Shown here: positions 6,554-27,565 of the stretch, in pieces
How positions within the stretch are numbered: position 1 is the first letter of the stretch
Layout of the letters: each line of letters begins with the position of its first letter
NCBI RefSeq assembly: GCF_904846605.1
Contig: NZ_CAJHBI010000020.1
Location: forward strand, 1-64,000
Length of the DNA stretch: 64,000 bases
Direction: 5' to 3'
DNA from: Psychrobacter sp. 72-O-c
GTDB lineage: Bacteria; Pseudomonadota; Gammaproteobacteria; Pseudomonadales; Moraxellaceae
The notes under the pieces: generated by a model
Seen by the model: only the letters and a program-made list of their open reading frames with translations
Database searches by the model: none
Told to the model about the DNA's origin: nothing
Position numbers and translations under genes: made by a program

Positions 6554-6863
6554 TCGACTAAAAATCCATTTTGAGAATAGCTTATAACCTGAATTGTTTG
6601 CTAGTATCAATCGAGTTAGAGCTGAACCAAAATAAAATAATTATTAGAAGTGTAAGCAATTTGGGTTTTTCTTATAGATATTATAAGTATAATCTCGCGG
6701 TCCAAACGAACATAGCGACATTCAGATGTTGTTAAATATGTTGTTAAAATTATTAATTTAAATAACGAAATCTATATAAACAAAGGGCTATGACCTATGT
6801 TATCATTCCCATAGATATTAACTTGGGAGATTTTAATCAAGCTGCCTAACTATAAAAGTCAAA
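6554..6863. other. Intergenic region, IS3 border
   Basis: No gene is visible. The segment 6601-6636 resembles 3192-3227 (28 of 36 bases), both containing TGAACCAAAAT, so a small dispersed repeat is present. The right part, 6841-6863, continues the IS3 transposase frame on the minus strand past its current stop codon and probably belongs to the end of that element. No clean IS terminus could be located. Confidence 0.4.
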
Positions 6864-8313: not shown

Positions 8314-8849
8314 TTAATTGCCATATTTAATGCTTTGCAAACTAAATCTGCTGTCATGCGCTTATTGATGGCGTAGCCGACCAGCTCTTTAGTGTAGAGG
8401 TCTTCGACTCCTGCTAAGCACAGCCAGCCCTCAGAATTCCAGATATAAGTGATGTCACTAACCCTGAGAAGCACTGCTTCGCAAGATTAGGGTAATTGGC
8501 GTCAAACTTCTGATCTAATAGATTTTAATAGACAAGCTTGTTATGATTGGAGTTGGTGGCGACGACATACAATGCCATAGGTCTCTTTGATACGCCTGAC
8601 CATGTATTTGCTAATGATATGACCTTGCTCTACTAGATGAGTATGCAGACGCTCATAGCCATAGCGCTGTTTGGTCTCGCCATGAGCCACTCTGACCAGT
8701 AGCTCACACTGATTGCAATGAATCTGCTGCTCATGGATATCACGATTTATCCAGTCGTAATAGCTTAATGGCTTAACGTCTAATATGTGACACATGCGGG
8801 TAATGGTAAATATCTGCCGATTTTCTTTGATAAAGGCGTACTTCACCAA
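8314..8849 (-). pseudogene. IS3-family transposase orfB, N-terminal part
   Basis: The frame from 8849 reads LVKYAFIKENRQIFTITRMC and KQRYGYERLH, the HTH_21 start of IS3-type orfB. It then frameshifts near 8570 into VVATNSNHNKLVY, meets a TAA stop near 8528, and continues as NLLDQKFDANYPN, SDITYIWNSEGWL and AGVEDLYTKELVGYAINK in shifted frames. It ends at the IS256-variant insertion inside MAIK. Its second half is at 6864-7250. The multiple frame breaks show that the IS3 copy was already decaying, apart from the later insertion. Confidence 0.75.
8468..8480. repeat. Short hairpin-module insert C in IS3 transposase
   Basis: GAAGC-ACT-GCTTC is a perfect mini-hairpin of the same form as those at 6948 and 7071 (RRAGC, 3-nt loop, GCTYY). 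It interrupts the junction between YPN and the SDITYIW motif of the IS3 transposase. Confidence 0.45.
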
Positions 8850-8853
8850 CTGT

Positions 8854-8883
8854 CACTGCGGGCATAGCCCTTCGACTTGCGTC
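8854..8883. repeat. Short hairpin-module insert D near IS3 orfA/orfB junction
   Basis: This 30-bp segment contains GGGC-ATA-GCCC and matches the module at 6914-6942 in the same orientation. It lies at the expected junction between orfA and orfB of the IS3 element, where no intact orfA can be recognised. Confidence 0.45.
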
Positions 8884-8929
8884 ACTAAAACAGTCCTTAT
8901 CAAAGCTATCAATCCCCTTTAAACGTTCT

Positions 8930-14249: not shown

Positions 14250-14864
14250 TCACAGGCAGGGGTTCGAACCATTTGCACTTAGGGTGTATGTTATAAAAAT
14301 ATCATTAATGTATTTTTCTACGGCATCGCTATCATTAGTGACTTGAGCATACGTCCTCAGACCTATTATTTGAATTTGGAAATAACGCGCCAGCTCAACC
14401 GGATTTTTCTCAACGCTGATTTCGCCGTTATCGATGGCTTGCTTAAAGATAGTAGCAAAGGATGCTTCTATCTTCTCTAAAATACCTGTTGCATGAGTCA
14501 ACAAATCTGGGCTATCGTTCTGGGTGAGTTCAGCGACCGTTTTGACAATCATGCACATACCACTTGGCGCAGTGGCTTTATTACATACAGTCACGCTATG
14601 AATAAATCGCTTCAAACCACCCAGCACGGTGTCTTCTTCTGCCATACAGTCGGCCAGCCTCTGAGCACCCTCTTTTGCATAACGATTTAATGCTTCTGCA
14701 AATAATTTGTCTTTGCTGCCAAAAGCGGCGTAAATACTACCGGGATGCATGTTCACCACGTCTTGTAGGTTTCTCATTGACGTTGCGTGATAGCCCTTTT
14801 CCCAATAGAGATTTTTTGCTTTTTCAATCACATCATCGCGATTAAATTTTACTGGGGCGCTCAT
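14250..14864 (-). CDS. TetR-family repressor (paralogue of the one at 24803)
   Basis: This 204-residue regulator has an N-terminal helix-turn-helix (KGYHATSMRNLQDVV, then MHPGSIYAAFGSKDKLF) followed by a helical ligand-binding domain. The recognition segment GSIYAAFGSKD is identical in the TetR at 24803-25417, so the two probably recognise related operators. This type (NemR/DhaR-like) typically senses electrophiles, and the ligand domain has several Cys (DCM, VCNK, MCM). It lies next to and co-directional with yghU and gst, separated from them by a terminator. Palindromes TTGARYG-N-RYTCAA near 16714 and 17866-17973 are candidate targets. Confidence 0.85.
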   Translation of the reverse strand: MSAPVKFNRDDVIEKAKNLYWEKGYHATSMRNLQDVVNMHPGSIYAAFGSKDKLFAEALNRYAKEGAQRLADCMAEEDTVLGGLKRFIHSVTVCNKATAPSGMCMIVKTVAELTQNDSPDLLTHATGILEKIEASFATIFKQAIDNGEISVEKNPVELARYFQIQIIGLRTYAQVTNDSDAVEKYINDIFITYTLSANGSNPCL

Positions 14865-14949
14865 AATTTTTACCTTAGAATTTTTATCTTAAAAGCTTGT
14901 CTTAACAATTGCTCTTAATTGCCTGTCTTAAAATTGGTTTACAAAAACA

Positions 14950-14978
14950 GAAACCAAGTAATAATATTACTTGGTTTC
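14950..14978 (-). terminator. Terminator after yghU/gst
   Basis: A perfect 13-bp stem (14950-14962 with 14966-14978) has a 3-nt loop. On the minus strand it is followed by CTGTTTTTG. It separates the GST genes from the TetR gene downstream. Confidence 0.7.
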
Positions 14979-15010
14979 TTACGTTATCGCTTGGCTTTAT
15001 TCGAAATAAG

Positions 15011-15868
15011 CTACTTTGGCTTTAATGCTAAGACTCTATCGATATCATCAGCATTATGACGGTTTTCGAGTTGCTCCCACTCTTCACCCCAGTTTCTGTT
15101 GATGATGCAGCCACGTTGTACTGCTGGTCGCGCTAACATGGCTGTCGCCCAACGCTGGACATGGGTGTACTCTTCAACCTGAAGGAATTCTTTTGCGTCG
15201 TATAGATTTCCCAAAACTAAATTGCCATACCAAGGCCAAGTAGCAATGTCCGCAATACTGTAATCATCACCAGCAATGAATTCGTTCGTCGCTAATTGCT
15301 TGTCTAATACATCCAATTGGCGCTTGATTTCCATCGCAAAACGATTGATGGGGTATTCAAATTTTTCGGGTGCATAAGCATAAAAGTGACCGAATCCACC
15401 ACCCAAGTACGGTGCAGAACCATGTAACCAAAACAGCCAGTTAAAGACCTTTGTACGCTTATTGCCTTCTTTAGGCAGTAATACCCCAAATTTTTCAGCA
15501 AGATACAGTAAAATCGAAGCCGACTCAAAAATAGGCTCAGCATCATCGCTAGAGTGATCGACTAATGCTGGAATCTTAGAGTTGGGATTAATATCTACAA
15601 ATCCCGATGTGAATTGATCCCCTTCGCCAATTTTAATCATATGGGCATCGTATTCCGCATCCTTACCTAATGCTAATAATTCCTCTAACATAATGGTAAT
15701 TTTTTGGCCATTAGGCGTGCCCATTGAGTACAGTTGCAAAGCATGCTTTCCGATAGGTAGCGCTTTTTCATGGGTTGCACCCGAAACCGGACGATTGATA
15801 CTTGCCCATTTACCGCCATTTTCTGCGTCATGAGTCCAGATTTTTGGTGGTGTGTATTGATTTTCCAT
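15011..15868 (-). CDS. yghU: Glutathione-dependent disulfide-bond oxidoreductase YghU
   Basis: This 285-residue GST-fold protein has the YghU signature start (ENQYTPPKIWTHDAENGGKW), then LPIGKHALQLYSMGTPNGQK in the thioredoxin-like domain, and a helical domain with DDYSIADIATWPWYGN. YghU-type proteins bind two glutathiones and reduce disulfides or organic hydroperoxides. ATG 15868 is chosen over a GTG three codons upstream. The second GST gene lies 48 bp upstream on the same strand, so the two form one transcript whose promoter carries the 16714 palindrome. Confidence 0.88.
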   Translation of the reverse strand: MENQYTPPKIWTHDAENGGKWASINRPVSGATHEKALPIGKHALQLYSMGTPNGQKITIMLEELLALGKDAEYDAHMIKIGEGDQFTSGFVDINPNSKIPALVDHSSDDAEPIFESASILLYLAEKFGVLLPKEGNKRTKVFNWLFWLHGSAPYLGGGFGHFYAYAPEKFEYPINRFAMEIKRQLDVLDKQLATNEFIAGDDYSIADIATWPWYGNLVLGNLYDAKEFLQVEEYTHVQRWATAMLARPAVQRGCIINRNWGEEWEQLENRHNADDIDRVLALKPK

Positions 15869-15916
15869 TCTTATCACTTCTATGTTGGTGAAAGCTATTG
15901 GTTCTATTTATCTTAA

Positions 15917-16597
15917 TTAGGCTTTTTTATCGAAGTTTTGTGGATATAGCGCCCGTGCAGCAACGTCATCAAACTCAGTCTTAAACTCGATATTTTTGGC
16001 AAGAGCGCGTGATTTTTCTACCGCAGGACGTGCATTTACGTTTGTAAACCAACGCTTTAGGTTGGGATAGCTCTCTAACTCTTCTTCGCCTAATACGCCA
16101 GCAGCTTTATCAATCCAGCCCCATGCTGAAATATCTGCAATTGAATACTCATCGCCAACTATATACTCGCGGCCTTCCATGTGGGTATCGAGCACTTCAT
16201 AATGACGTTCGGCTTCACGGAGATAGCGATTGATAGCATAAGGTATTTTTTCTGGCGCTTTATGTCTAAAATGAACGGATTGACCAGAAAAAGGTCCTAG
16301 GCCTGTCGCTAGAAACAGTAACCATGACAGCATCTCACCGCGATCTTCCGGCTTTCCTACTAATTTTCCCGTTTTCTCAGAAAGGTACATTAAGATAGCA
16401 GTCGAATCAAACACACGCGTGCCATCGTCTTCAATTGCCGGTGTTTTACCATTCGGGTTAATAGCGCGGTATTCAGGTGTGTGTTGCTCGCCTTTCAAAG
16501 TATCTACAGCAACCAATTCATACGGCAAGCCGGTCTCTTCAAGAAGAACAGCCACTTTCATTGGGTTCGGTGTTTGGTGAAAATAAAACTTAAGCAT
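15917..16597 (-). CDS. Glutathione S-transferase (nu-class, YfcG-like)
   Basis: This 226-residue GST has a thioredoxin-fold half with QTPNPMKVAVLLEETG, AINPNGKTPAIED (cis-Pro loop) and DSTAILMYLSEK. The helical half has GEMLSWLLFLATGLGPFSGQ and DEYSIADISAWGWI. It belongs to the same wider group as YghU/YfcG and may detoxify electrophiles or reduce disulfides. It is the first gene of a two-gene unit, and a perfect TTGAACGATCGTTCAA palindrome lies about 120 bp upstream of its start. Confidence 0.85.
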   Translation of the reverse strand: MLKFYFHQTPNPMKVAVLLEETGLPYELVAVDTLKGEQHTPEYRAINPNGKTPAIEDDGTRVFDSTAILMYLSEKTGKLVGKPEDRGEMLSWLLFLATGLGPFSGQSVHFRHKAPEKIPYAINRYLREAERHYEVLDTHMEGREYIVGDEYSIADISAWGWIDKAAGVLGEEELESYPNLKRWFTNVNARPAVEKSRALAKNIEFKTEFDDVAARALYPQNFDKKA

Positions 16598-16973
16598 AGC
16601 GTTATCCTATTATATAAAAATATTAGTTTGGTCACTATAAAAATAATAGAGAGCCTGAGTCGTGCGTTGAACAGTTTCTTTATTGCTTAGTGTTAGAACC
16701 ACTATAACTATAATTGAACGATCGTTCAAGTGTAAATTTTAAATAACTACTCATTTAATTATCAAAATTAGGCACAACAAGTGTTTTTACTTACGCGATA
16801 TTTAGAGAAGTTAATGTTGCGCCTATACCAAATAATTTAGAGTCAAGGGTTGATGAGAGTAAGCGCCGCTAGAGATGCCTGTATCATCTCCAAAATACCG
16901 AATATTACTTTGATAAGGCAGTAAATGAAATATACGATGCGCCGTAACCGATAAACGCCAATGCTAAATAAAA
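16598..16973. other. Intergenic control region between gst and a dehydrogenase remnant
   Basis: This region contains the operator-like palindrome at 16714-16729. The segment 16800-16973 shows no readable frame, although it precedes the C-terminal third of a dehydrogenase and is probably its decayed or deleted N-terminal region. No other gene is visible. Confidence 0.5.
16714..16729. promoter_or_regulatory. TetR-type operator palindrome O1
   Basis: TTGAACGATCGTTCAA is a perfect 16-bp palindrome upstream of the gst-yghU unit. Four related 16-mers occur at 17866, 17889, 17958 and 25489, all near genes of the same detoxification type, which supports a shared TetR operator. Confidence 0.65.
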
Positions 16974-17261
16974 ATGTATCGACTTATTTTAGGACAGGAC
17001 AATTTAAACATTATTAAAATCAAATTTAAAAGCTTATCATTCCATTGGCAGTTTATGTTTGCCCGCTCGCTGTTTCAAGTAGCAGACATGGAAGCGCAAG
17101 GCCACCTATTAAACCGTGTTTCTGATCTAATCAATCAAGGTCATATTCAAACCACGGTTGGCAAAAATATAGGTATTATTAACGCAGCCAATTTGCGCGT
17201 CGCCCATCAAGCATTAGAATCCGGTACCTCAATCGGTAAAATTGTATTAGAAAATTTTTAA
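16974..17261 (+). pseudogene. C-terminal remnant of a zinc-type alcohol dehydrogenase/quinone reductase
   Basis: The 95-residue frame ends with FHWQFMFARSLFQVADMEAQ, then LLNRVSDLINQGHIQTTV, AANLRVAHQALESG and SIGKIVLENF. This is the typical end of medium-chain zinc-binding dehydrogenases of the quinone-reductase branch. The NAD(P)-binding and catalytic N-terminal two thirds are absent. The ABM-domain gene starts 16 bp downstream, so the pair was probably once an operon of quinone-handling enzymes. Confidence 0.7.
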
Positions 17262-17277
17262 TACAACCCCACTAAAA

Positions 17278-17571
17278 ATGACCACATTAACCGTTATTGC
17301 CAATATCATTGCAAAAGAGGACCACATTGCATTAGTAAAGGCTGAGCTTGAAAAGCTGCTACCAGTTACACGTGTAGAGGAAGGCTGTCTCCAATACAAC
17401 CTATATCAAGACAATGAAAACCCTGCTCACTTAATGTTTCATGAAAGCTGGACGTCACGTGAGCTTTGGCAAACACATATAGAAAACCAACACTTAAAAG
17501 ACTTCGTAGCCGCAACGGATGGTGCGCTCGAACCATTCATCTTAAATGAGATGACAGAGGTTGCTCGGTAG
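17278..17571 (+). CDS. Quinol monooxygenase-like ABM-domain protein (YgiN-like)
   Basis: This 97-residue protein forms a single ABM (antibiotic biosynthesis monooxygenase) domain. It shows TVIANIIAKEDHIALVKAEL, TRVEEGCLQYNLYQD and FHESWTSRELWQTHIENQHL, the conserved His/Trp/Glu pattern of the family. Members such as YgiN act on quinols without a cofactor. No Shine-Dalgarno is obvious and the upstream dehydrogenase is truncated, so its expression is uncertain. A terminator follows at 17635. Confidence 0.75.
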   Translation: MTTLTVIANIIAKEDHIALVKAELEKLLPVTRVEEGCLQYNLYQDNENPAHLMFHESWTSRELWQTHIENQHLKDFVAATDGALEPFILNEMTEVAR

Positions 17572-17634
17572 TATTTTTACTTAGTAACTGTTTAGAATAA
17601 AAAATAAGACTTAGAGTAAAAAATAACACTGCAT

Positions 17635-17676
17635 AAAAAAGAAGAGCGCATTTAAATTGGCGCTCTTCTTTTTTGC
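17635..17676 (+). terminator. Terminator after the ABM-domain gene
   Basis: A 15-bp stem (17635-17649 with 17660-17674) of AAAAAAGAAGAGCGC type pairs across a 10-nt loop and ends in a T-run. Confidence 0.8.
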
Positions 17677-17865
17677 TTAGTAATGGCGATTAATTATGTT
17701 TCGACTCCCCTAATTAGTTTAATAAACCGAATTAGCAAGACCATAGAGAGGTGTCAAACCTCGTTAGTGCGTTTATACTTACAAAGCATTACCTACCTAA
17801 GTTACGGATATTGTTAGTAGAATAGCTATAAATAAGAGGAATGTAAGTTGCTCGTTACATTTAAT

Positions 17866-17881
17866 TTGAACGATTACTCAA
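17866..17881. promoter_or_regulatory. TetR-type operator-like site O2
   Basis: TTGAACGATTACTCAA matches the O1 consensus TTGARYG-N-RYTCAA with one half-site like O1 and the other like O3. It lies 23 bp from O3 in the 480-bp gap before the AhpD-like gene. Confidence 0.5.
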
Positions 17882-17888
17882 ATATTAG

Positions 17889-17904
17889 TTGAGCGTTCGC
17901 TCAA
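17889..17904. promoter_or_regulatory. TetR-type operator palindrome O3
   Basis: TTGAGCGTTCGCTCAA has perfect 7-bp arms around a central TT. It lies between O2 and O4 upstream of the AhpD-like gene. Confidence 0.6.
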
Positions 17905-17957
17905 TATAATTTATAGTGGTTTTTGTTGACTCGGCTAAAGAAGTGTTACGGCTCAAT

Positions 17958-17973
17958 TTGAGTGAATACTCAG
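17958..17973. promoter_or_regulatory. TetR-type operator-like site O4
   Basis: TTGAGTGAATACTCAG is the third related 16-mer of this gap, 79 bp before the ATG at 18052, and probably overlaps the promoter or leader. Confidence 0.5.
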
Positions 17974-18051
17974 ATTTATTATTAACCCTTAATCAGTAAC
18001 CAACTTTAAGCTGACATGAAAAACCTCACCTTTGTTATTAGGAATTATATT

Positions 18052-18606
18052 ATGACCGACTTTACTCTTCACGATAAAACAAGCGCCCCAGCAGACAGCC
18101 AAGAGTTGCTCGACGTGTCTATCAATGCTTTTGGCATGGTGCCAAACTTACATGCCGTTATGGCAGAAGCGCCGGGATTGCTTGAAGGCTATCAACGTCT
18201 ACATCAGTTGTTCCTAGACAGCAGCTTCGATGATGAAGAAACCACTGTTGTGTGGCAAACCATCAATGTTGAACACGCTTGCCATTATTGCGTTCCTGCC
18301 CATACTGGCATCGCCAAAAGCATGAAAGTAGATGACGCAATCACTGAAGCATTACGTAACGAGACCCTACTACCAACAGCACGTCTAGAAGCGCTTCGCG
18401 ACTTCACACTCTCTGTTGTCCGTGGCCGTGGTAATGTTGATGATAGCGCTGTTCAAGCATTTTTAGATGCGGGTTATACTAAGCGACAGGTTCTTGAAGT
18501 TGTACTTGGCGCGGCTCAAAAAGTAATGAGCAATTATACTAACCATCTTGCAAACACCCCGATAGACAAACCATTCCAAAAATTTGAATGGCACAAAGCT
18601 GATTAA
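18052..18606 (+). CDS. Carboxymuconolactone decarboxylase/AhpD-like protein
   Basis: From ATG 18052 (GGA nine bases upstream) the protein has 184 residues. The frame is open 12 codons further upstream. The AhpD/CMD-type motif EHACHYCVPAHTGIAK has the redox CxxC pair and the conserved His. FGMVPNLHAVMAEAPGLLEG precedes it, as in peroxidase-related CMD proteins. Such proteins reduce peroxides or act with thiol partners. It is preceded by three operator-like palindromes and followed 132 bp later by a DsbA-fold oxidoreductase, which supports a thiol/electrophile-stress role. Confidence 0.85.
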   Translation: MTDFTLHDKTSAPADSQELLDVSINAFGMVPNLHAVMAEAPGLLEGYQRLHQLFLDSSFDDEETTVVWQTINVEHACHYCVPAHTGIAKSMKVDDAITEALRNETLLPTARLEALRDFTLSVVRGRGNVDDSAVQAFLDAGYTKRQVLEVVLGAAQKVMSNYTNHLANTPIDKPFQKFEWHKAD

Positions 18607-18634
18607 TGAAGCGGACTAATAATGTAACCAGTAT

Positions 18635-18651
18635 GGGGTTGTCACAACCCC
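18635..18651. promoter_or_regulatory. 17-bp hairpin between the AhpD-like and DsbA-like genes
   Basis: GGGGTTG-TCA-CAACCCC forms a 7-bp GC-rich hairpin 29 bp after the AhpD-like stop codon. No T-run follows, so it is more likely an mRNA stability element, a pause site or an operator than an intrinsic terminator. Confidence 0.4.
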
Positions 18652-18738
18652 TCTGACGTTCTTATACTGTTGTTCAGAAGTCAATCGGGCAGCAGTTTTT
18701 TCAGTTAAATTTATAGATAAAATCTCACGAGAGGTCAT

Positions 18739-19407
18739 ATGGAAAATTCAAAGCAGTTATTATCAGAGCAACCACTACAAATAGACATCGTGTCAGACGT
18801 TGTTTGCCCTTGGTGTGTTATCGGTTATCGACAGCTGGCTGAAGCATTGGAGCAGACCAATACCGCACATGAGATTCATTGGCATCCGTTTGAGCTGAAT
18901 CCCAACACGCCACCTGAAGGACAAAACCTGCGCGAGCATATCATGGAGAAGTACGGCAGCACGGCTCAAGACTCTGAAGAGAGCCGCATCAGAATGACAG
19001 CAGCAGGCGCAGAAGTTGGCTTCGAATTTCAATTTACTGATGACACGCGAACGTACAATACTTTTAACTTGCATCAACTATTACATTGGGCGGATCAGCA
19101 AGGGCGCATGCACGATTTGAAGCAGGCACTCTTCAGCGCTCATTTCACTAACAATCGCAATGTTTCTGACAGTGCGGTGCTTGCAGATATAGCAGCAGAA
19201 ATCGGGCTGGATCGTACCGAAGCATTAGCCGTTATCGAAGACCAACGTTTTGCCAAAGACGTGCGCGAGGCCGTACAGCGCTCGCAAGAACAAGGCATTC
19301 AAAGTGTGCCATCCGTTATCTTTAACGGCCGCCATCTGGTTAGCGGCGCCCAAGGCGTTGAGAACTATACTAGCATTCTACAACAATTGGCTGAGATGCC
19401 AGACTAA
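18739..19407 (+). CDS. DsbA-family oxidoreductase (FrnE-like)
   Basis: This 222-residue cytoplasmic thioredoxin-fold protein has the redox motif CPWC in SDVVCPWCVIGYRQL near residue 23. A helical insertion with FNLHQLLHWADQQG follows, then the C-terminal thioredoxin elements GIQSVPSVIFNGRHLVSGAQ. This is the FrnE/2-hydroxychromene-2-carboxylate isomerase-like branch, which handles disulfides or glutathione adducts. AGAGG precedes the ATG. It belongs by position to the TetR-palindrome gene set. Confidence 0.85.
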   Translation: MENSKQLLSEQPLQIDIVSDVVCPWCVIGYRQLAEALEQTNTAHEIHWHPFELNPNTPPEGQNLREHIMEKYGSTAQDSEESRIRMTAAGAEVGFEFQFTDDTRTYNTFNLHQLLHWADQQGRMHDLKQALFSAHFTNNRNVSDSAVLADIAAEIGLDRTEALAVIEDQRFAKDVREAVQRSQEQGIQSVPSVIFNGRHLVSGAQGVENYTSILQQLAEMPD

Positions 19408-19535
19408 ACGAGGCTTTTAGCTATGGCCGATATCAAATAAAATAGAGTTGTGGATAAATACATGTGGCTAAAAAAATTCTTTTAGACGATATAAATTTTG
19501 AAAAACATCAACTTTAAGCAACAATTGGAATTTAG

Positions 19536-20840
19536 ATGCAGGATATTAAGTCTTGGCCAACACTGACGCGCTACCGCTCTTACTGGGTAGCGCTTTTTGT
19601 TTTTTTAAGTATTTGTCTGGGCATCTCTTCAAGCACGGCAGTTACCAGTACGATAGCCAGTACTGAGGATCAATCTTACTGGCAGCAGATGGAAACGCAT
19701 GGTAAAAATCAAGATGTCTATTTTTATGCGTGGGGTGGCGATGCGCAAATAAATGCTTATATACAATGGGCAGCCGAACAAATTAAGTCTCAGTACAATA
19801 TTAACTTAGTACATGTAAAACTTAGCGATACCAGCGAAGCCGTAAGCCGTGTATTGGCTGAAAAATCAGCAAACAATAATAGCCAAGGTAGCGTTGATTT
19901 AGTGTGGATAAATGGTGCTAATTTTGCCACTATGAATGAGCACTCACTGCTACTAAAACACTGGTCAAATAAGCTGCCAAACTTTGCACTCACTGACCCT
20001 AACAATAACCCTGCGGTTACCTTTGATTTTGGTATTCCCACTGAAGGCATGGAAGCACCGTGGGGACAAGCGTCGCTTACTTTTTATTATGACAACCTTG
20101 CTATTGATGGTTCAGCGAATAACAAACCGCCAACCACGTTAAACGAGATACTAAGCTGGAGCACCCAACATCCCGGACGCTTTAGCTACCCAAAGCCGCC
20201 TGATTTTCTAGGCATGAGCTTTTTAAAGTATGCCTTAGTGACGCTACATCAAAACAGCCCTGAAAATATAAAATCACAGCTGAACCAGCCAGCGACTGAC
20301 CAAAACACAGCGCTGGTACTCACTCCTTTATGGGATTTTTTGGACAAGCTACACCCAACACTATGGCGTAAGGGCGAGCACTTTATGCAAAATGGGGCGC
20401 AAATGCGGCGCTTAGTTGATGATACTGAGCTGAGCTTGGCGTTTACTTTTTCAGCACCTGAAGTACCTGCGGCGGTACAACGTTATGACTTGCCAGAAAG
20501 TATTCGTAGTTATGCCATGAATGATGGAAGTTTAAGTAATACCCATTTTGTGGCAATTCCTTATAACGCCAGTCACCCGCAAAGCGCGCAACTGGTCGCT
20601 AATTTTTTACTCAGCCCAACAGCGCAGGCGCATAAACAAAAAGCTAGCGTATGGGGAGACAAAACCGTACTTATTCAATCAACGCTAAATAATGATCAGC
20701 AAGCGTTATTCAAAACGAGTAAGCCACACCCAAGCGCACTCCCCTTTAACAGTATTAAACGCACGTTGAGTGAGCCGCATCCAAGCTGGGTCGACGCTAT
20801 TATGCAAGGTTGGGAGATGCGTTACGGGGTCAGCCAATGA
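19536..20840 (+). CDS. ynjB: ABC transporter substrate-binding protein (YnjB-like)
   Basis: This 434-residue secreted binding protein has a signal peptide (about residues 17-40) and the YnjB signatures VYFYAWGGDAQINAYIQWAA, VHVKLSDTSEAVSRVLAEK, VDLVWINGANF and APWGQASLTFYYD. It is the first gene of a transporter operon. Its stop overlaps the start of the permease gene (ATGA), so the two are coupled. The YnjBCD substrate is not established. Resemblance to thiamine and iron binding proteins is only general. Confidence 0.85.
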   Translation: MQDIKSWPTLTRYRSYWVALFVFLSICLGISSSTAVTSTIASTEDQSYWQQMETHGKNQDVYFYAWGGDAQINAYIQWAAEQIKSQYNINLVHVKLSDTSEAVSRVLAEKSANNNSQGSVDLVWINGANFATMNEHSLLLKHWSNKLPNFALTDPNNNPAVTFDFGIPTEGMEAPWGQASLTFYYDNLAIDGSANNKPPTTLNEILSWSTQHPGRFSYPKPPDFLGMSFLKYALVTLHQNSPENIKSQLNQPATDQNTALVLTPLWDFLDKLHPTLWRKGEHFMQNGAQMRRLVDDTELSLAFTFSAPEVPAAVQRYDLPESIRSYAMNDGSLSNTHFVAIPYNASHPQSAQLVANFLLSPTAQAHKQKASVWGDKTVLIQSTLNNDQQALFKTSKPHPSALPFNSIKRTLSEPHPSWVDAIMQGWEMRYGVSQ

Positions 20841-22591
20841 GTGCCCTGTCTAAGGATAAAACAGCTAGCTCCGTATCGGCAGCGCATCACAAAACAGATC
20901 GGTTTACACACCTTGTCAAATACAGTCCGCGATTTTTACTTGCCTTACTTATATTACCCGTGCTCGGTGGTTTACTAAGCGTACTCTTGCCAGCTTTTGG
21001 TTGGGCGCCAGCACTTGAACAAACAACGATTGGCTTTCAAGGCTTTAAGGCCCTTTGGCAAACGCCCTGCATCACGCAAATGGCCACGTTGAGTGTGGCA
21101 ACAGGCTTAATAAGCACGCTACTCGCTTTTTTGATGACCTTAATGATTTTGGCAGCCTTTTTCAACAGCCTTTGGCTTAATCGTATTGAACGTTTGCTCA
21201 GCCCTATTTTAGTCATTCCCCATGCAGCAGCCGCCATTGCGGTTGGTTTCTTAATTGCGCCTTCAGGTATGTTTTCTCGATTGGTATCACCGTGGTTAAC
21301 TGGCTGGGAGCTGGCACCCCATGGCATATTTCCACACGATCCATACGGTATCAGTATCATTTTAGGACTAACGGTAAAAGAGCTGCCATTTTTATTGTTG
21401 ATGGCACTGGGTGTGTTGGCTCAGCCTGAACTGGGTAAAAAACTGCGTCAACAGCATAAAGTAGCACTTAATTTAGGCTACTGCCCAATGACCGCCTTTT
21501 TTAAAGTAGTCTTACCAAATCTTTATCCCTTGTTGCGCTTGCCTATTTTTGCCGTACTCGCTTATGCCAGTGCCAGTGTCGAGATGCCGCTCATACTCGG
21601 CCCCAATACCCCGCCAACATTAGCCGTTGCTATTATGAACTGGTTCAACGATGTTGATTTAAACCTACGCATAAAAGCCTCTGCTGGTGCGGTATTACAG
21701 CTCGCACTTACGGGTAGCTTACTGGCACTATGGCTGGCTTGCGAAAAAACCATAAAAACATTGTGTAGTGATTTACTCACCAATGGTCAGCGCGAATATG
21801 GCGGTGATTTTTGGCACAAAGTCATTATAGTGCTCACGACCTTAGTTATTGGCTTCATATTACTGGCATTAATAGGTCTAGTGATGTGGTCGGTTGCTGG
21901 GTTTTGGCGCTTTCCAGCAGCGCTACCCGAACAGTTTGTGTTATTGCATTTTCAAAGTGCACTAATGCAAATGGGCAGCCCGCTATTTAATACCCTTACT
22001 ATTGGCCTAGTGACTACTATCTTTGCGGTTGTCCTCACTTTACTCTGTTTGGAATCCGAGCAGCTAACTGCCAAACCACTGTCTCGCTTTACCAGTTTGA
22101 TTATTTACTTACCGTTATTGGTACCCAGTATTGCCTTTTTGTTTGGTTTGGTATGGTTGCAGCAACTGATAAATAACCAAACCGCGTTTTTTAATGTGGC
22201 CTTTACCCATTTATTGTTTGTATTGCCTTATGTGTTTTTGTCGCTGTCGAGTAGCTATCGACGCTTAGATCCACGTTTTTCTAATGTTGCAGCAAGTCTT
22301 GGCGCCACGCCCTGTAAGGTGTTTTTACAAGTTAAGCTACCGCAGTTATTTGCCCCGATTTTGATTGCAGCCGCCCTTGGGCTCGCTATTAGTTTTGGTC
22401 AATATCTACCGACGCTTTTAGCAGGTGGCGGACGTATAGCCACTATAACCACTGAAGCCGTTACCCTCGCTAATGGTGCAAGCAGACGCACCAGTGCCGT
22501 TTATGCCATTATGCAAATAGCACTCCCTCTCATTGGGTTTATACTGGCGTGGGTATTACCTAAGTGTTTCTTTAAAAGTGCGCACCGCTAA
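20837..22591 (+). CDS. ynjC: ABC transporter permease, fused two-domain (YnjC-like)
   Basis: The 584-residue membrane protein is a tandem fusion of two permease halves, each with about six helices. The EAA-like loops are around NLGYCPMTAFFKVVLPNLYP in the first half and ASLGATPCKVFLQVKLPQLF in the second. It starts at ATG 20837, overlapping the ynjB stop by 3 bp. Like thiamine/iron-type ThiP/FbpB permeases, one protein supplies the whole pore. Confidence 0.88.
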   Translation: MSALSKDKTASSVSAAHHKTDRFTHLVKYSPRFLLALLILPVLGGLLSVLLPAFGWAPALEQTTIGFQGFKALWQTPCITQMATLSVATGLISTLLAFLMTLMILAAFFNSLWLNRIERLLSPILVIPHAAAAIAVGFLIAPSGMFSRLVSPWLTGWELAPHGIFPHDPYGISIILGLTVKELPFLLLMALGVLAQPELGKKLRQQHKVALNLGYCPMTAFFKVVLPNLYPLLRLPIFAVLAYASASVEMPLILGPNTPPTLAVAIMNWFNDVDLNLRIKASAGAVLQLALTGSLLALWLACEKTIKTLCSDLLTNGQREYGGDFWHKVIIVLTTLVIGFILLALIGLVMWSVAGFWRFPAALPEQFVLLHFQSALMQMGSPLFNTLTIGLVTTIFAVVLTLLCLESEQLTAKPLSRFTSLIIYLPLLVPSIAFLFGLVWLQQLINNQTAFFNVAFTHLLFVLPYVFLSLSSSYRRLDPRFSNVAASLGATPCKVFLQVKLPQLFAPILIAAALGLAISFGQYLPTLLAGGGRIATITTEAVTLANGASRRTSAVYAIMQIALPLIGFILAWVLPKCFFKSAHR

Positions 22592-22617
22592 AAGCACTTA
22601 TCATTGAAGGTTTTTTG

Positions 22618-23280
22618 ATGCAATCCTCTTTACAAATAAAAAATTTACAGCTTTTTCGTCAAGACCAGCTATTACTCAACTTAGACGAGCAGGTCAATAG
22701 CGGCGAAATACTTACTATTATGGGTCCGTCAGGCAGTGGTAAGTCAAGCTTGTTAAATTGGCTCACGGGTACCCTTGCCAGCAGCTTTACCGCCACTGGT
22801 GAAGTCTGGCTTAATGGTCAGAATGTTGGTAACCTGCCAACGCATTTGCGCCATATTGGGGTGTTATATCAAGATGCCTTACTGTTTTCACATTTAACAG
22901 TAGCCGGTAATATTGCCTTTGCCATGCCTAAAGGTAATAAAAAGCAACGACTTAAAAAAGTAGATGAGGCACTTGAGCAAGTTGGCTTACAAGGTATGGC
23001 CAACCGTCATCCTGATAATCTGTCGGGCGGGCAACAAGCGCGAGTCGCTTTATTACGGACGCTATTAAGCGAGCCTAAAGCCATTTTACTTGATGAGCCG
23101 TTTAGTAAGCTTGATACCCAACTAAGGGTTGATACGCGCCAATTGGTGTTTGAACAAATTCGTAATCGTAAACTACCCACCATTATGGTCACGCATGACC
23201 ATAGCGATGCTGAAGCGGCAAAGGGTAAAATCATCCATTTACAAGCCATTAATTTAAAAGTTATCGACGCAGCACGATAG
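22618..23280 (+). CDS. ynjD: ABC transporter ATP-binding protein (YnjD-like)
   Basis: The 220-residue ATPase has a Walker A GPSGSGKSS, a Q-loop in IGVLYQDALLFSHL, the signature LSGGQQARVALLRTL, the Walker B AILLDEPFSKLD and the H-loop VTHDHSDAEA. ATG 22618 follows GAAGG by 7 bp. It energises the YnjBC importer, and the gene lies 26 bp after the permease. Confidence 0.9.
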   Translation: MQSSLQIKNLQLFRQDQLLLNLDEQVNSGEILTIMGPSGSGKSSLLNWLTGTLASSFTATGEVWLNGQNVGNLPTHLRHIGVLYQDALLFSHLTVAGNIAFAMPKGNKKQRLKKVDEALEQVGLQGMANRHPDNLSGGQQARVALLRTLLSEPKAILLDEPFSKLDTQLRVDTRQLVFEQIRNRKLPTIMVTHDHSDAEAAKGKIIHLQAINLKVIDAAR

Positions 23281-23318
23281 CTGTAGAGTCACAAGTTCAA
23301 ACCCATAGGGCAATTAGC

Positions 23319-23963
23319 ATGCTAGACAAATATATTACTCCCATTATAAAACCCCTGTTAACCCCAGTGGTAAAACTACTGCACAAGCGTGCTATCACGG
23401 CTGACCAGTTGACTGTGGCGGGGTTTTTAATCGGCTTATTAGCAGTACCATTACTCGCCTTAGAGTATTGGTATGCGGCACTAGCGGCTATTGCTCTAAA
23501 CCGGATTTTAGATGGGCTTGACGGTGCGCTGGCTAGATATGCCAATCAAAGCTCAAGCGCTGGTGGCTATTTAGATATTACCCTCGACTTTTTGTTTTAT
23601 GCGGCAATTCCGTTTGGATTTATCCTTGCCAATCCTGAGCAAAATGCTATTGCTGGCTCATTATTGTTAGCAACCTTTATTGGTACCGGTTCAAGCTTTT
23701 TGGCCTTTGCGATCGCTGCTGAAAAGTTCGATATTGAAAAACCACAGTTTAAATATAAGAGCTTTTACTACTTAAATGGTTTAACCGAAGGCACTGAAAC
23801 GATTGCGCTGTTTGTAGCGTTTTGCATTTGGCCGCAGTACTTTGCCCTGCTAGCTACCCTATTTGCGATTGCGTGCATAATTACTATTTTTACTCGTATA
23901 TATGGTGGTTATCATACCCTTAAACAGCAAGAAGCCGAAAGGAGTGGAGCAACCAATGACTAA
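23319..23963 (+). CDS. ynjF: CDP-alcohol phosphatidyltransferase (YnjF-like)
   Basis: The 214-residue membrane enzyme has the CDP-alcohol phosphatidyltransferase motif DGLDGALARYA, followed by GGYLDITLDFLFY with the conserved aspartates (D-G-x2-A-R-x8-G-x3-D-x3-D), and about five or six helices. It transfers a phosphatidyl group from CDP-diacylglycerol to an unknown alcohol. It lies 38 bp after ynjD, as ynjF is linked with ynjBCD in enterobacteria, and overlaps the next gene by 8 bp. Confidence 0.85.
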   Translation: MLDKYITPIIKPLLTPVVKLLHKRAITADQLTVAGFLIGLLAVPLLALEYWYAALAAIALNRILDGLDGALARYANQSSSAGGYLDITLDFLFYAAIPFGFILANPEQNAIAGSLLLATFIGTGSSFLAFAIAAEKFDIEKPQFKYKSFYYLNGLTEGTETIALFVAFCIWPQYFALLATLFAIACIITIFTRIYGGYHTLKQQEAERSGATND

Positions 23964-24747
23964 CGAGGTATGGTGGCGACTTGGCTTTTTCTTTAGCATT
24001 TTAGTGATAATGATGCTGTTTGAGTGGCAGAAACCCGCGCGCAAATCGCCCATTAAGAGTAGCACTCGTTGGTTCACTAATTTTGGATTGGTCGTTTTGT
24101 CTTCAGTTATAGCCCGCTTAGCAGTGCCCATTGGTCTCACTGCAGTGGCGCTTTATACCCAGCAGCACGGTATTGGTTTGTTTAATCTAATAGCCCTGCC
24201 AAAAGTTATAGCGATTGTACTGAGTTTAGTTTTGCTCGATATTTTAATTTATTGGCAGCATAGACTGTTTCACAAAGTGCCTGCGTTATGGCGTTTGCAC
24301 CGCGTCCATCATGCGGATGCCCATGTTGACACCAGTACCGGACTTAGGTTTCACCCAATTGAAATAGTACTCAGTATTGTGGTAAAACTGGTCGCCGTTG
24401 TTGTTTTGGGCGTCCCTGCTATAGCGATACTGATATTTGAGATAGCTTTAAATGGCTTGGCATTATTTAATCATGCCAATATTCGCCTGCCATCGGCCAT
24501 TGAAAAACCATTGCGCCTCATATTAATGACCCAAATTTTACATCGTATTCACCATAGTCAAGTCGTGTCTGAGACCAACTCAAACTATGGTTTTAGCGTT
24601 ATTTGGTGGGACAAACTGTTCGGTAGCTATAAAAGCGTCGCAAAAAAAACCGATAATGACCTTGATATCGGTTTGATTGAATATCCTACTGCCAAGCAAA
24701 ATGCGTCGCTGTGGAGTTTATCGATGATGCCATTTAAGAGTAAATGA
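23956..24747 (+). CDS. Sterol desaturase/fatty acid hydroxylase family protein
   Basis: This 263-residue integral membrane protein has the di-iron histidine clusters HRLFH, HRVHHADAH and HRIHHSQ, with about four helices. It starts at ATG 23956 inside the end of ynjF, preceded by AAAGGAG, so translation is coupled. Family members hydroxylate or desaturate lipid or sterol-like substrates using O2. Coupling to a phosphatidyltransferase and a transporter suggests a shared membrane-lipid pathway, which is inference. Confidence 0.85.
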   Translation: MTNEVWWRLGFFFSILVIMMLFEWQKPARKSPIKSSTRWFTNFGLVVLSSVIARLAVPIGLTAVALYTQQHGIGLFNLIALPKVIAIVLSLVLLDILIYWQHRLFHKVPALWRLHRVHHADAHVDTSTGLRFHPIEIVLSIVVKLVAVVVLGVPAIAILIFEIALNGLALFNHANIRLPSAIEKPLRLILMTQILHRIHHSQVVSETNSNYGFSVIWWDKLFGSYKSVAKKTDNDLDIGLIEYPTAKQNASLWSLSMMPFKSK

Positions 24748-24802
24748 GCAACTCAACTTATCATTCATTAATCTGAACATTTAAGCAAAATTGCGTGAAT
24801 TA

Positions 24803-25417
24803 TTAATTCGTTTCTGCTACGCCCTCTATATACAGCGCTTCCAAAGATAACGCCATATCTTCCGCAATGTCATGCACAGCGCCGCTATCAACATCCCTCT
24901 GGGCAAAGGCACGCAGCCCCATAACTTCGGCTTGCAATCGCCGACCAAGGCGTACAGGATCTAGCTGATCGTCTAATTCTCCAAGCCGCTGGGACTCAGT
25001 AAAGCTATTTGTAAAGTGAGTCTCCATACCTGCCAGCATGCCCTCGACTTTACGCAATGCTGACTGCTCGCGTTCCCCCAGCTCCAATAAGCTTTTGACT
25101 AACATACAGGCGCGACTTGGCAACTCTTTATCACGTAGTCCGCCAAGCAGACGTAAGTAAGCCGCCAATCCTAGCAGCGGAGAGCTGTGGGCATTCAAGG
25201 TGCGTTCTAGCTCAACCATAGCATTACGAGCATAGTAATCGAGTGCTTCTTGAAACAACCCATCTTTGCTACCAAAAGCGGCGTAAATACTACCGGGGCG
25301 CATATCGAGCGCTTTTTCTATATCTTTTAGTGAGGTAGCATGAAAACCCTTTTGCCAAAACAGCTGTAACGCTCGATCCAGAGATTCTTGCCGATTGTGA
25401 AGTGTTGCACGAGCCAT
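24803..25417 (-). CDS. TetR-family repressor (paralogue of the one at 14250)
   Basis: This 204-residue regulator has the same recognition segment GSIYAAFGSKD as the TetR at 14250-14864 (LYWEKGYHATS there, LFWQKGFHATS here). The C-terminal ligand domain is only distantly similar and has a single Cys (RACMLVK). Codon choice looks more GC-rich than in neighbouring genes. It is divergent from the dehalogenase at 25600, with the TTGAGTGACTGCTCAA palindrome between them, which is a classic autoregulated repressor arrangement. Confidence 0.85.
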   Translation of the reverse strand: MARATLHNRQESLDRALQLFWQKGFHATSLKDIEKALDMRPGSIYAAFGSKDGLFQEALDYYARNAMVELERTLNAHSSPLLGLAAYLRLLGGLRDKELPSRACMLVKSLLELGEREQSALRKVEGMLAGMETHFTNSFTESQRLGELDDQLDPVRLGRRLQAEVMGLRAFAQRDVDSGAVHDIAEDMALSLEALYIEGVAETN

Positions 25418-25488
25418 AATTTATTCCAGTTTTTTCAAGCCGTGGACTTATATAATAGACATATAATAAAAAAACACGACCCTACAAT

Positions 25489-25504
25489 TTGAGTGACTGC
25501 TCAA
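25489..25504. promoter_or_regulatory. TetR-type operator palindrome O5
   Basis: TTGAGTGACTGCTCAA lies in the divergent region between the TetR gene and the haloacid dehalogenase and fits the TTGARYG-N-RYTCAA consensus of the sites at 16714-17973. Confidence 0.6.
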
Positions 25505-25599
25505 TTTTATCTTGAATAGTCTTTACAGTCCAGTTAAAGTTAAGTATCAAAGCTATAGTGCGCCCCTTAACTTATCGACTGTACAAAAAAGGATATCTC

Positions 25600-26295
25600 A
25601 TGTCTCAGAATAAATTTCCTTCTATCATCGTATTTGACGTCAATGAAACTCTGCTCGACATCACTACCCTTGAGCCTCTGTTTGAGCGCGTATTCGGTGA
25701 CCCAACCATTATGCGAGAATGGTTCGCGCAGCTGGTACTGTATTCACAGACCATGACTCTATCCGGTCTTTATGTCTCCTTTGGTGATCTTGGTGTTGGC
25801 GCATTAAAAATGGTTGCTACTATTCATGACGTAGACATTGCAGACAGTGACGTTGCAGAGCTAAAAGAGCGCCTAAGCAGCATGCCAGCTCATCCCGATG
25901 TTATCCCCGCACTCACCCGTTTGCGCGATGCAGGCTTTCGGTTAGTTACTCTGACCAACTCACCGAGTAGCACGTCCCCCACTCCATTAGAAAAAGCAGG
26001 CTTGAGCCAGTTTTTTGAGCATACCTTTAGCATCGAGACCGTCAGTAAGTTCAAACCTGCTCCTGAAACCTATCACATGGTTGCCAAGGAGTTATCCGTT
26101 GAGGTTTCAGATCTATGTCTCGTTGCCTGTCACCTTTGGGACACTATAGGGGCGCAAGCAGCTGGCTGCCGTGGTGCACTTCTCACACGACCACACAATG
26201 CTATTATTTCAGCACCTGGCGTACCGTTACCAGATTTGGTCGCATCAGAGCTAACTGCTCTCGTTGATCAAATCATCCTTCACAAAGAAATATAA
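25600..26295 (+). CDS. 2-haloacid dehalogenase-type HAD hydrolase
   Basis: From ATG 25600 (GGAT upstream) the 231-residue enzyme shows the HAD type II dehalogenase pattern. FDVNETLLDI carries the nucleophile Asp (Asn in place of the second Asp, as in haloacid dehalogenases), TLTNSPSS is motif II, SKFKPAPETYHMVAKEL carries the catalytic Lys and VACHLWDTIGAQAAG is motif III. Such enzymes hydrolyse 2-haloalkanoates or related organic acids. It is divergent from the TetR repressor and likely controlled by it. Confidence 0.85.
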   Translation: MSQNKFPSIIVFDVNETLLDITTLEPLFERVFGDPTIMREWFAQLVLYSQTMTLSGLYVSFGDLGVGALKMVATIHDVDIADSDVAELKERLSSMPAHPDVIPALTRLRDAGFRLVTLTNSPSSTSPTPLEKAGLSQFFEHTFSIETVSKFKPAPETYHMVAKELSVEVSDLCLVACHLWDTIGAQAAGCRGALLTRPHNAIISAPGVPLPDLVASELTALVDQIILHKEI

Positions 26296-27028: not shown

Positions 27029-27565
27029 ATGCAATCAAATTATGAACAGAAAATTCAAGCGGGTGTAAAATTCCCTGACATAGATGTACAACTGTTAAAT
27101 GGCAATATGAAGTCATTGGGCACGCCTGAGAATGGTCACGATTGGAAACTAGTGGTTGTTTATCGGGGTAAACATTGCCCGATTTGTACTAAGTATCTCA
27201 ATCAGTTAGAAATGGTAAAAGAGTCATTTGCTAATACTGGTGTTGACTTGATTGCGGTATCTGGTGACAGTAAAGAGCAGCTAGAGAGTCATTTAGAAAA
27301 ATTAGATATCAGCTTCCCTATTGCCTATGGTTTGACCGTCGAGCAGATGAATACCCTAGGGCTTTATATCTCTGACCCACGTTCAGAGAAAGAGACTGAC
27401 CACCCCTTTGCAGAGCCTGGTGTGTTTGTCATTAATGCTAAAGGAGAGATTCAGGTTGTTGATATCTCTAACGCGCCTTTTGCCAGACCTGAATTGGAAG
27501 CCCTTGCAAACGGCTTAGCCTTTGTCAGAAATAACGACTACCCTATCCGTGGTACGCATCACTAG
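27029..27565 (+). CDS. Peroxiredoxin-like AhpC/TSA-family protein
   Basis: This 178-residue protein has a thioredoxin-like fold with a CxxC motif in YRGKHCPICTKYLNQLE near residue 50, then VDLIAVSGDSKEQLESHL and FPIAYGLTVEQMNTLGLYIS. In place of the usual peroxiredoxin PxxxTxxC it has CPIC, so it belongs to the peroxiredoxin-like (AhpC/TSA, DUF899-like) group and may reduce peroxides or act as a thiol reductase. AAAGGATAAAATC precedes the start. A strong hairpin follows. Confidence 0.82.
   Translation: MQSNYEQKIQAGVKFPDIDVQLLNGNMKSLGTPENGHDWKLVVVYRGKHCPICTKYLNQLEMVKESFANTGVDLIAVSGDSKEQLESHLEKLDISFPIAYGLTVEQMNTLGLYISDPRSEKETDHPFAEPGVFVINAKGEIQVVDISNAPFARPELEALANGLAFVRNNDYPIRGTHH

Follow-up and report, generated by a model that had tools for sequence, protein, structure and literature searches.

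The 64,000-nucleotide stretch analyzed here, called the window below, is from contig NZ_CAJHBI010000020.1 (positions 1 to 64,000) of a Psychrobacter genome of 3.22 Mb in 81 contigs; its relatives also appear to point to Psychrobacter. Genes for two TetR-type regulators, TetR1 and TetR2, lie here among genes for redox enzymes, transport, and lipid metabolism, and five 16-bp palindromes stand between genes. Our reading, to which we give a probability of roughly 0.7, is that two related TetR repressors each hold a module of their own through an operator of their own. The features concerned are listed below; orthologue counts refer to 80 genomes of the genus, with the window's own genome included among the TetR1 and TetR2 carriers.

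14250..14864, minus strand: TetR1, putative repressor of the glutathione S-transferase (GST)-YghU-TetR1 operon; Pfam TetR_N and TetR_C_13; orthologue in 30 of 80 genomes
15011..15877, minus strand: YghU-type glutathione-dependent disulfide-bond oxidoreductase; NCBIfam NF008731, 503 bits, cut-off 325; start perhaps ATG 15868
15917..16597, minus strand: glutathione S-transferase; Pfam GST_N/GST_C
16701..16729, minus strand: promoter-like TTGAAC-17-TATAGT for GST, a consensus match only; first hexamer inside the 16714 operator
16714..16729, no strand: predicted class A operator (TetR1 type), TTGAACGATCGTTCAA, exact consensus match
17866..17881, no strand: predicted class B operator, TTGAACGATTACTCAA, exact consensus match
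17889..17904, no strand: predicted class B operator, TTGAGCGTTCGCTCAA, exact match, 23 bp from 17866
17889..17917, plus strand: promoter-like TTGAGC-17-TATAGT for the AhpD-like operon, a consensus match only; first hexamer inside the operator
17958..17973, no strand: predicted class B operator, TTGAGTGAATACTCAG, one mismatch (last base), 69 bp from 17889
18016..18606, plus strand: AhpD-like protein (CMD family) with EHACHYCVPAH; Pfam CMD and TIGR01926 both below cut-off; start perhaps ATG 18052
18739..19407, plus strand: FrnE-like DsbA-fold oxidoreductase with VCPWC; Pfam DSBA, 128 bits
19536..20840, plus strand: YnjB homologue, ABC substrate-binding protein; 39% to E. coli YnjB, E 8e-90; NF008633
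20810..22591, plus strand: YnjC homologue, ABC permease; 30% to YnjC, E 4e-41
22615..23280, plus strand: YnjD homologue, ABC ATPase; 50% to YnjD, E 1e-68
23319..23963, plus strand: YnjF homologue, CDP-alcohol phosphatidyltransferase; 59% to YnjF, E 4e-77
23902..24747, plus strand: fatty acid hydroxylase family protein; Pfam PF04116
24803..25417, minus strand: TetR2, putative repressor for the class B operators, with Cys104; Pfam TetR_N; orthologue in 48 of 80 genomes
25489..25504, no strand: predicted class B operator between TetR2 and the haloacid dehalogenase gene, TTGAGTGACTGCTCAA, exact match
25558..26295, plus strand: haloacid dehalogenase type II (HAD), divergent from TetR2; TIGR01428, 173 bits, cut-off 125; start perhaps ATG 25600

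The palindromes and the two TetR proteins

The original prediction had named five 16-mers; all of them are present at the positions listed, and all are intergenic. Its pattern as typed, TTGARYGNNRYTCAA, has 0 matches, and the consensus that fits the sites is instead TTGARYGNNYRYTCAA. This consensus has 4 exact sites in the window, or 6 strand matches against 0.03 expected, and 0 of 100 shuffles reach 6. The same four are the only exact sites in the 3.22 Mb of the genome, and the chance that the other three would fall this near the first, were the four placed at random, is about 1.6e-7. The reversed pattern, used as a control, gave one forward and no reverse match. The exact sites are thus commoner than chance would have them, but matches with one mismatch are largely noise, since those with at most one mismatch number 53 strand matches in the whole genome against 33 for the reversed control. 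Two still looser patterns were dropped: a 14-mer with 2 mismatches (54 matches against 36.8 expected, 54 being reached by 1 of 100 shuffles) and a 16-mer with 3 mismatches (108 where 100.2 were expected, a count equalled or exceeded in 29 of 100 shuffles). Because the consensus was derived from the same sites, its enrichment in the window is circular, and the relatives therefore serve as the independent test. The palindromes are genuine; their recurrence before the same genes in many relatives, in company with these TetR genes, supports a regulatory role.

Both TetR proteins carry the TetR_N helix-turn-helix of the TetR/AcrR family (PF00440; 43.6 and 60.9 bits, cut-off 24), and each has inverted-repeat sites near its own gene and its target, as TetR/AcrR repressors do. 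The segment GSIYAAFGSKD does occur in both, as had been noted. In an alignment of 29 TetR1, 61 TetR2, and 48 more distant rows it is exact in 20, 26, and 0, respectively, several of the distant rows having GSIYAAFGSK, and much of the identity appears to be a feature of the subfamily. The same alignment has a cysteine at position 104 (Cys104) in 29/29, 61/61, and 47/48 rows. To speak of different ligand domains, as the original prediction did, was an overstatement: both proteins match Pfam TetR_C_13 (TetR2 below cut-off), and both have Cys104. In a tree of 75 rows, which carries a long-branch warning, TetR1 and TetR2 form separate clades (each 100/100) inside a larger group (99/94) that also takes in other AhpD-linked regulators, some nearer TetR1 and some nearer TetR2, so that the two are best seen as long-separated lineages and not as the products of a recent duplication.

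Two operator classes across the genus

Sites were assigned to class A, TGAACG-N2-CGTTCA, or to class B, for which a narrow pattern, TTGAGYRATYRYTCAA, was used beside the full 16-mer consensus. Presence of TetR1 and TetR2 and the genome tallies for class A, class B, AhpD-like, and major facilitator superfamily (MFS) genes were read from match lists by hand; the TetR2 tally takes in truncated or interrupted copies in G059, G067, G076, and G077 and leaves out a C-terminal fragment in G072. Class A occurs in 28 of the 30 genomes with TetR1, compared to 1 of the 50 without it (G005, where the match lies inside a coding frame and was taken as chance), and the two TetR1 genomes that miss it, G020 and G070, are both without an intact GST gene at the locus. 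The narrow class B pattern is found in 46 of the 48 genomes with TetR2 and 3 of the 32 without. In the 21 genomes that have TetR2 only, class B is present in 20 and class A in none. Because class A tracks TetR1 and class B tracks TetR2, each repressor probably has its own operator. The original prediction of one palindrome family over both clusters was right in that the sites are related, but the shared operator it implied splits into these two classes.

The loci themselves point the same way. Matrix scores, computed for sites by genes of at least 55% identity, favor class B over class A by 8 to 20 bits for four of the five window sites. Among 309 sites near AhpD-like, TetR2, or DoxX genes, one is strictly class A, and it is itself a GST operator; of the 28 sites no more than 260 bp from GST, 25 are strictly class A, and the remaining three each lie beside a strict one. 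The window's site-pair spacings, 23 and 69 bp, recur in relatives (83 pairs at 23 bp and 83 at 67 to 72 bp). The TetR2 loci surveyed are the best 80 of 81 matches from one scan, 79 of them distinct, and some genomes are counted twice under different loci, so that pair and site counts are not all independent.

The dispersed sites of a YbfB-like MFS gene mostly keep class A and are for that reason the best evidence for action in trans. This gene is present in 25 of the 30 TetR1 genomes and in 0 of the 50 others; in some species it is a neighbor of GST, and elsewhere it is found tens of kilobases off or on another contig. The 25 copies have an exact class A site before them in 19 cases and a one-mismatch site in 3; 1 was not assessed, and the 2 without a site belong to the window's species and its nearest relative. 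For the homologue in the window's species (80%; G000:C8:105886-107097), a search of the 420 bp upstream that allowed as many as 3 mismatches found no class A site.

From these observations we infer binding and repression as follows. TetR1 would bind the strict TGAACG-N2-CGTTCA at 16714, covering the -35 of the GST-YghU-TetR1 operon, and would thereby repress itself and two glutathione enzymes. TetR2 would bind the looser TTGARYR-N2-YRYTCAA at 17866, 17889, 17958, and 25489 and repress the AhpD-like/FrnE/ynjBCDF/fatty acid hydroxylase operon, itself, and the haloacid dehalogenase. Contact of Cys104 in the ligand domain with a thiol-reactive compound, whether electrophile or oxidant, would release the repressor and turn on the detoxification and membrane genes. 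Since -35-like hexamers lie inside operators, a repressor dimer sitting there would keep RNA polymerase out; the promoter overlap at 16729-16701 (minus) and 17889-17917 (plus) is suggestive only, with 8 promoter-like matches in the stretch against 5.4 expected, and the 25489 region yielded a single weak match, which is on the minus strand. A count of -10 hexamers 16 to 18 bp from an operator half (203 of 444 sites, in either orientation, with no background) was left unused.

Several points weigh against this reading. The TetR1-only arm of the comparison is weak because it consists of three genomes, G020 and G070 with neither class and G032 (89% complete) with both. Class B sites occur without TetR2 in G052, G013, and the same incomplete G032, and the nearest relative, G002, lacks the narrow TTGAGYRATYRYTCAA though TTGARYGNNYRYTCAA sites are present. 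In the window itself, 17866 alone of the four class B sites fits the narrow pattern, the rest being assigned by matrix score; the class A matrix was built on six distinct sequences only, and 16714 scores 25.5 bits as class A and 22.9 as class B, a margin of 2.6 bits. The notion that class A palindromes are avoided among class B sites was dropped, as the shortfall (0 against 1.7 expected) has a P of 0.16 and is not significant. Because the genomes are related by descent, the co-occurrence tests are not independent of one another; an operator and its gene mostly sit at a single locus and are co-inherited, a link loosened only by the dispersed sites of the MFS and DoxX genes. Finally, Cys104 is also found in homologues without the motif.

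The alternative nearest to the original prediction is one shared regulon in which each of the five sites is bound by both repressors, with cross-talk between the two. Both classes share TTGA...TCAA and differ at few positions, the recognition helices are near-identical, and 16714, at 22.9 bits by the class B matrix, falls within the range of the window's class B sites (19.5 to 23.9). On the same kind of scoring, however, the class B sites are 8 to 20 bits worse by the class A matrix; class A is absent from all 21 TetR2-only genomes, and it accompanies TetR1 even where the target lies elsewhere. We consider such a regulon unlikely, and the cross-talk raised as a possibility at the outset is not supported, since the classes track separate TetR genes; the matrix score would allow 16714 to be read one way, by TetR2, as well. 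Control of everything by TetR2, with TetR1 a passenger, is very improbable: TetR2 is the commoner of the two (48 against 30 of 80 genomes), and nine Marinobacter loci have a YghU gene between TetR2 and the AhpD-like gene, but the 30 TetR1 copies are free of stops in the matched stretch, the TetR1 operator is the more strictly conserved, and TetR1 has an MFS target of its own.

Gene modules in relatives and on plasmids

The original prediction had omitted the ynjBCDF and fatty acid hydroxylase genes behind the class B sites. Its gene names hold, with GST, YghU (NF008731), DsbA/FrnE-like, and haloacid dehalogenase type II over cut-off and AhpD-like/CMD below it. CHYC is present in 55 of 55 AhpD-like homologues inspected and VCPWC in 20 of 25 FrnE-like homologues. 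The ynj identities were obtained by BLAST against E. coli K-12. The genes from AhpD-like through the hydroxylase (18016-24747) are probably co-transcribed, across a 128-bp gap after FrnE.

In other Psychrobacter, the genes ahead of ynjBCDF are DoxX and one for a TVP38 domain fused to a flavin disulfide reductase. Of 32 such loci, 20 have a class B-type site, or two of them 67 to 70 bp apart, in front of DoxX; of the 12 loci without a site, 11 have less than 100 bp of upstream sequence, and in L083 DoxX directly follows AhpD-FrnE. L083 thus has the whole DoxX-to-ynj set behind AhpD-FrnE, and the window and G002 have ynjBCDF directly behind AhpD-FrnE, so that in each arrangement the ynj genes lie behind class B-type sites. 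In L247 (G009:C5, 6571-6608), two motif sites 22 bp apart lie upstream of a 146-residue membrane protein at 6809, possibly a further target. Downstream of HAD in the window is an AhpC/TSA-type peroxiredoxin-like gene (27029-27565), a homologue of which follows HAD in L092, L194, and L200.

Two further genes lie between the GST operator and the class B sites:

16974..17261, plus strand: zinc-type alcohol dehydrogenase/quinone reductase remnant, 95 residues, C-terminal; TIGR02817 positions 245-336 of 336
17278..17571, plus strand: antibiotic biosynthesis monooxygenase (ABM) fold protein; Pfam PF03992

A full-length (345 residues) homologue of the dehydrogenase remnant adjoins ABM in Marinobacter (L112:13507-14544), with a motif site within a few hundred bases of the two genes, and G041 (L249) has both genes. 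In the nearest relative (G002, L162), the class A operator (9060) and GST have transposase-like genes between them at 8197-8896, probably from an insertion sequence that would separate GST from its operator.

Outside the genus, loci with TetR2 orthologues occur in Marinobacter, Halomonas/Vreelandella, and Cobetia as well as in Psychrobacter, and loci with TetR homologues of 34 to 46% identity in Neptunomonas, Microbulbifer, Pseudoalteromonas, Oceanospirillum, Psychromonas, Colwellia, and two alphaproteobacteria. In most of these, the TetR and AhpD-like genes are preceded by one to three sites, some of them one mismatch off. In 114 loci scanned, some of them with neither gene, a site lies by the TetR2-type gene in 70 and by the AhpD-like gene in 78; the most distant loci (L158-L161) have no site near the TetR gene. 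A sample of 274 gammaproteobacterial genomes gave 36 matches outside the window's genome, the best 29 of which were examined as loci: an exact site lies by the TetR gene in 11 and a site with one mismatch in 2, while 16, mainly the most distant homologues, have none nearby. In 10 of the 11 exact-site loci the TetR genes are 28 to 38% identical. The two plasmids of marine alphaproteobacteria that were examined also carry a TetR-AhpD pair with the motif.

A counterpart is also present on enterobacterial plasmids. By tblastn, TetR homologues of 37 to 39% identity are plasmid-borne in at least 21 records from Klebsiella, E. coli, Salmonella, Citrobacter, and Providencia (among the best 40 of 109 records), and in these genera the AhpD-like and haloacid dehalogenase genes occur together in at least 21 rows. 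The one plasmid examined closely, of IncC type and from an E. coli veal isolate (L284, CP063738.1, 120-13315), has DoxX, TVP38, FAD oxidoreductases, ynjB-C-D-F, AhpD-like (59%), haloacid dehalogenase (37%), and TetR genes. TVP38 is followed there by IS150 and is elsewhere annotated as a TVP38/FAD-oxidoreductase fusion. Operators, inspected on this plasmid only, are TTGAGTGATCACTCAA and CTGAGCGTTCACTCAA, with a spacing of 23 bp. All six TetR proteins that were compared, among them the window's two, have Cys104. At least 80% of the 13.3-kb stretch is present in at least 21 of 72,556 plasmid records, all enterobacterial (among the best 40 of 1,623 matches); three further records of these 40 cover about half of the stretch, and the others owe their match to the IS150 portion. 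The island's TetR end was found in 3 of 5,426 complete E. coli genomes, each time on a plasmid. Isolates bearing the island come from bovine, milk, veal, and human sources. The veal plasmid also carries a class 1 integron integrase and aadA6 some 20 kb from the island.

Known systems and the inducer

An AlphaFold model of TetR2 (pLDDT 89, pTM 0.83) has as its best structure match CifR (Z 21.0, root-mean-square deviation 2.2 over 191 residues), the next other entry having Z 19.9. CifR of Pseudomonas aeruginosa is an epoxide-responsive TetR repressor that controls an epoxide hydrolase, with an MFS transporter in its operon (PMC8244358). CifR is also among the two best PDB sequence matches, at 25 to 26% identity; further points of likeness are its recognition stretch, RPPSLYAAFGSK, and the MFS gene of its operon, which has a parallel in the class A targets of relatives. 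A CifR cysteine is aligned with Cys104, and by a reading of the chain numbering it is Cys107, among the residues changed in deposited entries; the likeness of fold applies to TetR2. No Cif-type epoxide hydrolase is among the family matches of the genes scanned, the rest of the genome not having been searched. As a lead only, L214 and L215, tree neighbors of CifR (86/58, a weak support, on a long branch), carry the motif.

NemR of E. coli is a TetR protein sensing quinones, N-ethylmaleimide, hypochlorous acid (HOCl), and methylglyoxal (PMC7464077). It resembles the present system in its TetR fold (Z 18.4) and as an electrophile-sensing repressor of detoxification genes, but its targets are nemA and gloA, neither of which is among the genes scanned next to operators (the rest of the genome was not searched). 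We take its operator to be unlike the window palindromes. Both window TetRs show a weak NCBIfam similarity to AcuR, the acrylate regulator of Rhodobacter sphaeroides, the operator of which is TAATAGAC-n6-GTCTATTA (PMC3017554). Membership was rejected at 42.7 and 32.1 bits against a cut-off of 247 (NF051457), and the operator differs from TTGARYGNNYRYTCAA. Two other systems were set aside, an Acidovorax TetR system with a pqiAB cluster (PMC4204640) and the PA3973 system, with a different motif (PMC9736018).

On gene content, the window resembles the horizontally spread allicin islands of Pseudomonas PfAR-1, in which tetR stands with dsbA/frnE-like and ahpD genes (PMC7119367; review PMC8001868) and where ahpD or dsbA overexpressed alone conferred resistance (PMC7119367). 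The PfAR-1 partners differ, being oye, trx, kefC, and osmC; of these, oye, trx, and kefC were not found among the window-side genes scanned. The E. coli ydjXYZ-ynjABCDEF region shares YnjB, C, D, and F with the window, and its ynj genes are adjoined by DedA-family and AhpD-like genes much as in the DoxX/TVP38-reductase/ynjBCDF order of other Psychrobacter. A 15-kb stretch of that region has no exact motif, one 1-mismatch match (12703), and no annotated TetR, and because the window's AhpD-like protein has no BLAST match to E. coli YnjA, we do not call it ynjA. P. aeruginosa RclX is an AhpD-like enzyme that is induced by, and protective against, HOCl and hypothiocyanous acid (HOSCN) (PMC7950407). 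It is likened here by its AhpD-like type, and its regulator, RclR, is a different one. RclR is presumably of the AraC family. No publication on this regulon or operator was found in a literature search in which subscription papers were largely out of reach. The system is best placed among the TetR thiol/electrophile-stress regulons, its two repressors probably reading two related operators and not a single common palindrome.

The likeliest trigger is release of the repressor by a thiol-reactive compound, because Cys104 is conserved and aligned with the CifR cysteine in a CifR-like fold. Electrophile detoxification fits the gene content, the inducer itself being a prediction, and related systems suggest epoxides (PMC8244358), allicin (PMC7119367), and HOCl/HOSCN (PMC7950407) as candidate agents. 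An inducer that is not an electrophile, such as a fatty acid, carboxylic acid, or acyl-CoA, would suit genes of lipid and haloacid metabolism (HAD, YnjF, the hydroxylase, and the ABC importer), and membrane-lipid and transport genes do stand beside redox genes in the operon. Small acids are bound by many TetR regulators. We find an ordinary ligand of this kind rather unlikely, given that thiol and glutathione redox families are present (GST, YghU, AhpD-like, FrnE, and in relatives a disulfide reductase), that the cysteine is kept in the ligand domain, and that a tetR-frnE-ahpD island confers allicin resistance elsewhere (PMC7119367).

A broader version of the two-repressor reading can be put forward tentatively, as a minority view: a new, transferable thiol- or halogen-stress regulon with a Cys104 TetR sensor, operators paired 23 bp apart, and a gene set of AhpD-like, haloacid dehalogenase, FrnE-like, DoxX, TVP38-disulfide reductase fusion, YnjBCD, and YnjF. 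It would be spread over dispersed promoters in Psychrobacter, with a glutathione branch under a second sensor, and gathered on plasmids into one island of about 12 to 13 kb, possibly selected by oxidizing disinfectants or by the lactoperoxidase system of milk.

The 80 genomes with both, one, or neither regulator form a natural experiment behind a two-repressor system that can be tested. A similar gene set, with operators of this kind, is carried on plasmids of enterobacteria from food and from humans, in which any tolerance to oxidants would be of practical interest. A shared operator, seen in more than one arrangement of the genes, links the little-understood ynjBCDF transporter and lipid genes to redox enzymes; if the broader version is true, these orphan genes would gain a part in surviving thiol-reactive oxidants.

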